DNA from: Actinomycetes bacterium
GTDB taxonomy: Bacteria > Actinomycetota > Acidimicrobiia > Acidimicrobiales > Palsa-688
Length of the DNA: 64,000 bases
NCBI GenBank assembly: GCA_021787365.1
Contig: JAJYMB010000059.1
Span: forward strand, 1 to 64,000
Direction of reading: 5' to 3'
Within the stretch, counting starts at the first letter, position 1. The number at the start of each line of letters is the position of its first letter. This document shows positions 1 through 1,041 of the stretch, piece after piece. Below the pieces are notes generated by a model, which was not told the origin of the DNA, ran no database searches, and saw only the letters and a list, made by a program, of their open reading frames with translations. The position numbers and the translations under genes were made by a program.

Positions 1-122
1 CCCAAAGGCAGCGTAACCATGTCAAGAAGACCGTCGGTAAGCCGTATGCGGGAAAACCGCACGTACGGATTGAAAGGGGGATGGGGAACCGGGCTCGCAA
101 GAGCACCGCGCCCCTGACTACC
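1..122 (+). mobile_element. 3' end of a group II intron (domains V and VI)
   Basis: Domain V is visible at about 39-71. The helix CCGTA (42-46) pairs with TACGG (64-68). A two-base CG bulge (62-63) follows. Then TGCGG (47-51) pairs with CCGCA (57-61) around a GAAA-type loop. This is the standard bacterial group II domain V layout. Domain VI follows at about 76-118, with the hairpin GCTC-gcaa-GAGC (93-104) inside a GGGG/CCCC stem, and the tail CTGACTACC fits a 3' splice site near 120-122. The base of domain V has a G/A mismatch where families normally have G/U, so the copy may be decayed. The rest of the intron and any reverse transcriptase lie left of the window. Confidence 0.75.
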
Positions 123-123
123 A

Positions 124-1041
124 ATGACTGAAAGCGACGGCCAGGGGAGCACAACTTCGAGCCCGCGCACGACTGGTACGGGGATGGTGAAGCGGGGCCT
201 CGCTACCCAGCTGCGCGGCGGGGTGATCATGGACGTGGTCACTCCCGAACAGGCCAAGGTCGCCGAAGACGCCGGTGCCGTCGCGGTAATGGCGCTCGAG
301 CGGGTCCCTGCCGACATCCGTCGCGATGGTGGCGTCGCCCGGATGAGCGACCCTGCCCTCATCGAGGCCATCATGGCGGCGGTAAGTGTCCCGGTGATGG
401 CCAAGGCCCGGATCGGCCACTATTCAGAGGCAAAAGTGCTGGAGGCGCTCGGGGTCGACTACATCGACGAGAGCGAGGTGCTGACGCCGGCGGACGACGA
501 GCACCACATCGACAAATGGCGCTTCACGATCCCCTTTGTTTGCGGGGCCAACGACCTCGGTGAGGCGCTCCGGCGGATCTCCGAGGGCGCGGCCATGATC
601 AGGAGCAAAGGCGAAGCCGGCACCGGCGATGTCAAAGAGGCCGTGCGCCACTTGCGCCACATCCTGGGCGACATCCGCAAGATCGGGCAGTGCGAGTCCT
701 CCGAGCTCTACTCCTGGGCGAAGGAGCTGCGCGCCCCTGTCGAGCTCGTGAGGGAAATAGCCGAGACGGGCGAGCTGCCGGTGCCGCTCTTTTGTGCCGG
801 CGGCATCGCCACACCCGCGGACGCGGCGCTGGTGATGGAGATCGGCGCGCAGGCCGTCTTCGTTGGCTCCGGGATATTCAAGAGCACCGACCCGCCACGT
901 TTTGCCCGGGCGATCGTCGAGGCAACCACGCACTATTCCGACTACTCGATAGTGTCGAAAGTGAGCCGCGGCCTCGGCGGGGCCATGAGGGGCGAGGAAG
1001 CGGGATCTGTGGCGACGAAGCTCTCCGAGCGAGGCTGGTAG
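124..1041 (+). CDS. pdxS: Pyridoxal 5'-phosphate synthase subunit PdxS
   Basis: PdxS (305 aa) builds pyridoxal 5'-phosphate from ribose 5-phosphate, glyceraldehyde 3-phosphate and ammonia in the DXP-independent route. It forms the 12-subunit core decorated by PdxT. The TIM-barrel hallmarks are present: MDVV with Asp37, the Schiff-base lysine in VMAKARIGH (Lys94), and the second lysine in [10 protein letters not shown] (Lys162). The length fits the family. The first 20 residues are a Ser/Thr/Gly-rich leader like that of other actinobacterial PdxS. The ATG at 124 was chosen although it follows the intron 3' end directly; an ATG at 184 is the alternative. The natural 5' UTR must lie left of the intron, so expression may depend on splicing or on a ribosome site inside the intron. 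pdxT follows after 31 bases. Confidence 0.96.

Follow-up and report, generated by a model that had tools for sequence, protein, structure and literature searches.

The first bases of contig JAJYMB010000059.1 (C62) raise the question of why the 3' end of a group II intron stands directly against the start codon of pdxS, and how a gene interrupted at that point could still be read. The stretch analysed here, called the window, comprises bases 1-64000 of this contig (64,000 nucleotides), which belongs to an Acidimicrobiaceae metagenome-assembled genome (MAG) of 4.56 Mb in 154 contigs. The feature quite probably represents the 3' terminal part of a mobile group II intron whose lineage has specialised on the start codons of leaderless genes. 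Judged from the junctions compared below, this intron is one of a lineage doing this to many genes and not a one-off. The elements of the window on which the argument turns are as follows.

1..127, + strand: contig-end overlap and collapsed repeat, 100% identical at the ends of contigs C62, C106, C147 and C132.
1..126, + strand: group II intron 3' end, with the tail of domain IV, domains V and VI and the terminal CCAATG (from RF00029, the fold and the alignment).
37..72, + strand: domain V, with a G.A mismatch near its base (RF00029 alignment).
76..122, + strand: domain VI hairpin, lower stem GGGG/CU-A-CC (predicted fold).
120..120, + strand: predicted branch-point A, bulged in domain VI (fold, and by-eye analogy with outgroup domain VI).
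124..126, + strand: ATG, proposed last three bases of the intron, in frame with pdxS; the proposed 3' splice site follows 126.
127..1041, + strand: pdxS from codon 2 (PdxS equivalog match; 305-codon frame including 124-126).

The initial annotation had recognised domains V and VI of a group II intron in this segment and a 3' end adjoining pdxS, and both calls are borne out. RF00029, the Rfam family for these domains, matches positions 37-118 of the + strand with 37.9 bits (E 1.1e-5) in a 1-kb search; because this lies slightly under the gathering score of 40, a search of the whole window at the gathering cut-off returned just a tRNA. The copy on C147 reaches 44.2 bits. The fold of positions 33-123 beats shuffled sequences (z -2.5, with 2/200 as good), and that of the entire segment 1-123 is unexceptional (z -0.96). 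Positions 1-126 align with the full-length relatives L082 and L083 at 95-96% identity. The mismatch in domain V, earlier read as a hint of decay, is found in 20 of 29 rows of the 3'-end alignment and is therefore regarded as a family trait; the pattern has no match in the other 9, which include divergent, hybrid or deleted copies.

At each of the four shared contig ends a different gene begins at the ATG: pdxS on C62, and on the others serA, rmlA and a 77-aa open reading frame (ORF) that looks antitoxin-like by eye and has no Pfam match. Identical ends of about 127 bases are the signature of a collapsed repeat overlap, and the assembly breaks inside a multi-copy intron. The absence of an intron body left of pdxS is therefore an assembly matter, and no sequence further left can be read on C62, whose base 1 is base 1 of the window. 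Domains I-IV and a reverse transcriptase (RT), which had been expected upstream, are accordingly missing from C62 and present in full-length relatives.

The nature of the target emerges from 59 distinct 5' junctions, a count from which six loci were dropped: L120, L121, L128, L105, L116 (second fetches) and L102 (3 nt upstream). The exon ends in ATG at 38 of them, in GTG at 18, and in CTG, ATC and AGG at one each. A strict TANNNT precedes the codon by 6-8 nt in 52/59 (spacers of 6, 7 and 8 nt in 36, 12 and 4), and most of the remaining 7 come close to it. Over 96 kb of this genome, the same motif is found at 30 of 4,986 ATG or GTG triplets, one of the 30 being itself an intron junction, and the difference between 52/59 and this background has a binomial probability of 1e-107, relatedness ignored. 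Here and below, copies were found by similarity and so are not independent, p-values ignore ancestry, and gene starts were assigned from ORFs and profile matches alone. C precedes the codon in 43/59, and Shine-Dalgarno-like tetramers occur at 3/59. These junctions show a target of the form TANNNT, 6-8 nt, (C)RTG, with insertion directly after RTG, between codons 1 and 2. The letters of TANNNT are those of a minimal -10 element, and the most frequent spacer is the usual distance from -10 to +1. The sites are not of the group IIC type, consisting in 52/59 of TANNNT plus a start codon and not of an intrinsic terminator (hairpins were not scanned as such).

The same arrangement recurs within the genome of the window itself. 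A search with the 5' end of a relative's intron gives 13 matches, three of them weak, and ten 5' junctions, in each of which a promoter-like hexamer is followed, after roughly six to nine bases, by ATG or GTG and then by GTGCGTCC. The terminal sequence is the same in 9/10, which, like the frequency of the domain V mismatch, makes decay an unlikely reading. Strict TANNNT is present at 8/10, and the remaining two have TAGGCC and TAGACG. In the nine copies of the same type the middle bases of the hexamer vary, with T, A and mostly T constant; as the intron ends are the same throughout, recognition of the full hexamer by RNA pairing is excluded. The group II 5' end GUGYG appears as GTGCG at the junctions of this genome and as TTGCG, a departure, in many relatives. 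A search of the genome for RTs found only those on C98 and C21, neither of which was assigned to the start-codon lineage; they are taken as other types because neither adjoins the ends of this lineage. Other group II intron ends or RTs in the same genome (G000) lie at C98:16522-18172, C85:1984-2067, C74:16044-16115 and C21:3442-3909.

The start codon itself appears to be read by the intron RNA. From 12 sequences aligned over their first 370-410 bases, a structure of domain I is obtained in which 44/83 pairs change on both sides, and one hairpin of this domain, GAGCCG-CUCAUGUCA-CGGCGAAGG, has CAU in its loop. Across 21 distinct copies this loop pairs with the exon at positions -4, -3, -2 and -1 in 18, 20, 21 and 21 cases, and is therefore taken as exon-binding site 1 (EBS1); the pairing at -4 has a permutation p of 0.0007 (relatedness ignored). 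The loop reads CAU in 20/21 copies, the single CAC belonging to Acidiferrimicrobium, where both flanking codons are GTG. In outgroup introns, compared by eye, the loop is complementary to the end of a different 5' exon at L142 (GAAA/TTTC), L168 (CUGAG/CTCAG), L137 (UCUG/CAGA) and L194 (CAUAC/GTATG), and fits poorly at L136, L152 and L187. By this comparison EBS1 is CAU(G); it complements the start codon, and it covaries with the exon base in front of that codon, which shows the pairing. The CAU triplet is also that of initiator tRNA.

If the gene supplies one start codon, the origin of the one at the 3' junction has to be settled. Eighteen copies with both ends readable have the 5'/3' codons ATG/ATG (13), GTG/ATG (3) and GTG/GTG (2). 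Among 12 full-length copies in which EBS1 and both codons can be read, every 3' codon (12/12) is complementary by Watson-Crick pairing to the EBS1 of the same intron (CAU/ATG 11, CAC/GTG 1), and in 3 of the same 12 a 5' GTG stands opposite CAU. The geometry of domain VI, with the branch A followed by six bases as in outgroup introns ending in CUAC (by eye), agrees with the distance in the window, where the predicted branch point (120) is six bases ahead of the proposed 3' splice site. Complementarity and geometry together indicate that the 3' codon is part of the intron, whereas the gene supplies the 5' codon. Two further cases agree with this. In an Arachnia gene that carries an intragenic copy (L122), removal of the core and one RTG restores a frame of 1,708 codons, and retention of both codons introduces a stop. 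Hybrid introns of ~885 nt (L102, L230 and L234, in G031, G083 and G299), which are ORF-less, 88-91% alike in the three genomes and composed of the lineage's domain I with a different domain V/VI, begin as RTG|GTGCG on the 5' side and have no 3' start codon; at L102, the ATG joined to the following sequence would open an RHH-type antitoxin frame (family by eye). The intron therefore lies between the start codon and codon 2, and its common form ends in a start codon. This usual form is shown by the compared ends to be CCA-RTG, and insertion leaves the gene with a further in-frame start codon.

For the window it follows that the ATG at 124-126, formerly taken as the start codon of pdxS with the splice site in front of it, is most likely the last three bases of the intron; splicing would likely occur at 126/127, and the gene's own ATG would lie across the gap on contig C137. 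An ancestral 3' splice site at CUAC was considered and rejected, as it would shift the gene relative to the reading frame set by its start codon and is also contrary to the domain VI geometry. The 18/18 readable RTG/RTG pairs might also be explained by a target-site duplication with both copies of the start codon kept in the spliced mRNA. This explanation is very improbable: it is rejected for L122 by the stop, three of the 18 pairs combine a 5' GTG with a 3' ATG, and the hybrid copies have no 3' codon at all.

How the lineage comes to these sites is a separate matter, on which three explanations have been weighed. According to the first, no special targeting exists, any CRTG is hit, and only harmless, expressed insertions behind strong-promoter start codons survive. 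Copies ahead of essential genes, which follow intact, would suit such filtering, as would the limited harm expected from an intron-borne AUG. Nevertheless, it is improbable: the rare strict motif is already present at eight of the ten own copies, whose mostly identical ends suggest that they are young; survival alone would be expected to leave, among the 59, intergenic sites that are harmless and lack TANNNT, and these are nearly absent; and the intragenic copy has the motif too.

A second explanation holds that the intron ribonucleoprotein (RNP), probably through its protein, reads TANNNT, promoters being hit because TANNNT-N6-8-CRTG occurs mostly at leaderless starts. Sister groups have a conserved hexamer of their own 9-15 nt before the insertion: CANTGA in Streptomyces and kin, TAGCCT in Nocardia, Rhodococcus, Gordonia and Nonomuraea turkmeniaca, and TAGTAC, all at -15 to -9. 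The sister loci concerned are L140-L149, L167 and L175-L182 (Streptomyces and kin), L142, L143, L155 and L189, and L152, L190 and L191. Stop-codon targeting in these groups is unsupported, as the open frames before their TGA or TAG are mostly short. Such lineage-specific hexamers favour reading by the RNP, as do the enrichment of motif sites alone at ORF starts and the TACAGT that still precedes the ATG of the intragenic copy by 8 nt. The spacer of the start-codon lineage, however, varies between 6, 7 and 8 nt with its mode at the -10 to +1 distance, whereas sister spacing looks fixed, and what is conserved in the hexamer amounts to no more than the letters of a minimal -10 element. Recognition by the RNP is a serious candidate that falls somewhat short of an even chance.

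The third explanation assigns the choice of site to RNA polymerase, the RNP reverse-splicing at +3 of a leaderless start into the non-template strand that is melted in an open promoter complex. The hexamer fits a -10 element, and 36/52 spacers are 6 nt, which would place the codon at +1 to +3. The protein has only RVT_1 and GIIM and no endonuclease domain, and insertion would need only about 4 bp of EBS1 pairing. Introns without an endonuclease domain are described, in the excerpts of PMC12350094, as relying on single-stranded DNA at replication. The non-promoter-like hexamers that sister lineages use in the same register, and the existence of an intragenic copy, speak against this explanation, in which melting itself is conjectural; it is possible but tentative. 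The fuller form of the proposal, in which the lineage lands on open complexes at leaderless promoters, reads the melted codon with its CAU EBS1 and inserts at +3, takes over the promoter, is transcribed behind a 5' exon of three bases and gives the gene a start codon back, is a shade more doubtful still.

The pdxS locus illustrates what the favoured reading, that of an intron lineage adapted to leaderless genes and their start codons, would mean for a single gene. Over 1.5 kb (74% identity), the end of C137 is syntenic with the sequence that precedes pdxS in G299, a genome of the same genus, and the locus therefore most likely runs C137 - intron - C62. Before the intron C137 reads TAGGAT-GGTGGC-ATG, and the pdxS of G299, an empty site with no intron, reads TACGAT-GGTTGC-ATG-ACT, with a single ATG. 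An in-frame pdxS start with TANNNT 6-8 nt upstream is found in 22/24 readable relatives, counted over the 24 loci with the anchor motif, other fetched pdxS loci without it being left out. In this order pdxS looks leaderless, which would account for the missing ribosome site. The initial annotation had placed the promoter of pdxS upstream of the intron or within it, and had suggested that intron sequence might serve as a Shine-Dalgarno element: the upstream placement holds as a necessary one, and the ribosome site does not seem to be required for intact pdxS. G runs resembling AAAGGGGG of domain VI are kept in deleted copies and are also present in unrelated introns. For L115 and L239, no usable ortholog site was found from which the start codon of an empty site could be read.

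Other host genes identified by profile encode phosphoglycerate dehydrogenase (serA), RmlA, QueA, ProS, a polA-like 5'-3' exonuclease protein, RibF and methylmalonyl-CoA mutase, in addition to PdxS. An ORF of at least 60 codons opens exactly at the RTG in 34 of 41 3' junctions, which were drawn from 46 rows after removal of L232, at a contig end, and of L098, L101, L102 and L105, whose projected ends lack an RTG, with L088 and L089, the same gene in two genomes, both counted. In five internally deleted copies, with cores of 101, 143, 270, 311 and 608 nt, the 5' and 3' ends are retained. Most of the ribozyme is gone from those of 101 and 143 nt, which look unable to splice and are nevertheless followed by an intact ribF (L103) and an intact 194-codon gene (L259); in these two, translation presumably starts at the AUG of the intron. 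Downstream of pdxS in the window, a pdxT-like frame (1073-1810) carries in-frame C-terminal repeats (ADKETAEKL..., RPDKE) at 1680-1790, just before the next gene.

The lineage recurs in the order and extends beyond it. Its 3' end is found in 19/298 sampled genomes of the order and its 5' end in 34/397, and the copy numbers are lower bounds, two candidates per genome having been scored in these scans. A protein-profile scan of named genomes yields 80 loci. Close relatives with the same arrangement occur in Acidimicrobiia, an Arachnia genome and the complete genome of Conexibacter sp. S30A1, and also in MAGs labelled Polyangia, Acidobacteriota, Desulfomonile, Alphaproteobacteria and Elusimicrobia, some contigs of which may be mis-binned. 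No relative was found in viral contigs. At L081 (G083, another family) the 3' end is 98% identical to that of the window's intron, which suggests recent horizontal transfer.

Domains I-IV of L121 match the Rfam family group-II-D1D4-4 with 97.5 bits (gathering 49). The intron protein of L082/L083 has RVT_1 and GIIM domains with no endonuclease domain seen, L082 matches group_II_RT_mat with 416.6 bits, and the best solved relative by sequence is the GsI-IIC RT. In a midpoint-rooted tree of 47 proteins, with long branches flagged for L126 and L199, the start-codon introns lie on one side of a branch with 97/96 support, with the exception of Kutzneria L194, and L134, whose 5' junction is unreadable, groups among them. 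L194 of Kutzneria sp. 744 (~3941), in another clade, reads TAGAAT-GGGGGT-ATG at its 5' junction and has no 3' end found; with its loop complementary to GTATG, it is perhaps an independent switch to start codons.

In the favoured model, the native promoter would transcribe the intron from about the start codon, and splicing would rejoin the gene's own start codon to codon 2; in copies that do not splice or have lost part of the intron, translation could begin at the intron's terminal AUG. Insertions would thereby be nearly harmless, which would explain copies before essential genes. The repeated identical ends and the frame restored in Arachnia are compatible with self-splicing as well as with retrohoming.

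Several points weigh against this reading. Motif sites of the 96-kb background open an ORF of at least 60 codons in 22/30 cases, so that the 34/41 above are by themselves no proof of a preference for start codons beyond the motif; moreover, 7/41 3' sites start no such ORF, among them the intragenic L122 and L097, which lies upstream of a leadered gene. Group II introns usually end in AY, from which the proposed ...AUG, a site placed by domain VI and the Arachnia frame, deviates. The 3' codon is GTG in 2/5 sites with a 5' GTG and in 0/13 with a 5' ATG (Fisher p 0.065), and the GTG/GTG pairs leave some room for 3' codons derived from the target. If transcription starts at the codon, a 5' exon of 3 nt would be unusually short for group II splicing. 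The interior of the window's own intron was not recovered in the bin, and we infer leaderless transcription, splicing and initiation at the intron AUG from sequence.

Several known systems share features with this lineage. Bacterial group IIC introns are said, after Robart, Seo and Zimmerly in 2007, to insert behind transcription terminators. Like them, the start-codon introns combine a short EBS1 pairing, an RT/maturase without an endonuclease domain and a transcription signal beside the target; unlike them, they target a -10-like element with a start codon and not a terminator, and end in a start codon of their own. Introns of Streptomyces, Nocardia and Rhodococcus share the EBS1 hairpin GCCGAGC...GYGAAGG, the protein family and the hexamer at -15 to -9, but have other EBS1 sequences and hexamers and no 3' ATG, and are not at start codons. 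These actinobacterial sisters are perhaps the class g1 so named in the excerpts of PMC8919778. The nearest described case is that of the TeI3 introns of Thermosynechococcus elongatus, which, according to the part of PMC2882425 consulted, sit between two start codons of intron ORFs; like the present lineage, they are group II introns beside start codons, but they occupy one conserved site inside the ORF of another intron (a twintron), and do not follow a rule over many unrelated genes. In the alternatively splicing introns of Clostridium tetani and Bacillus anthracis, the choice of splice site likewise matters to the reading of a host protein, and start-codon targeting is not described in the passages available from the two reports (PMC3919590, PMC4424553). 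No report of start codons or leaderless promoters targeted as a rule by group II introns was found in open PMC papers, subscription literature being outside this scope.

As a rule, splicing and safe landing places, for instance behind terminators, keep group II introns from doing harm. The present lineage does the opposite, occupying the most sensitive point of a gene and seemingly remaining harmless by reading and regenerating the start codon. With an intron that ends in its own start codon, even essential genes would be open to invasion. Such introns may show how splicing proceeds when the 5' exon is extremely short, and may provide a route to recognising leaderless genes from DNA alone and possibly a natural, programmable-looking tool for start-codon tagging.
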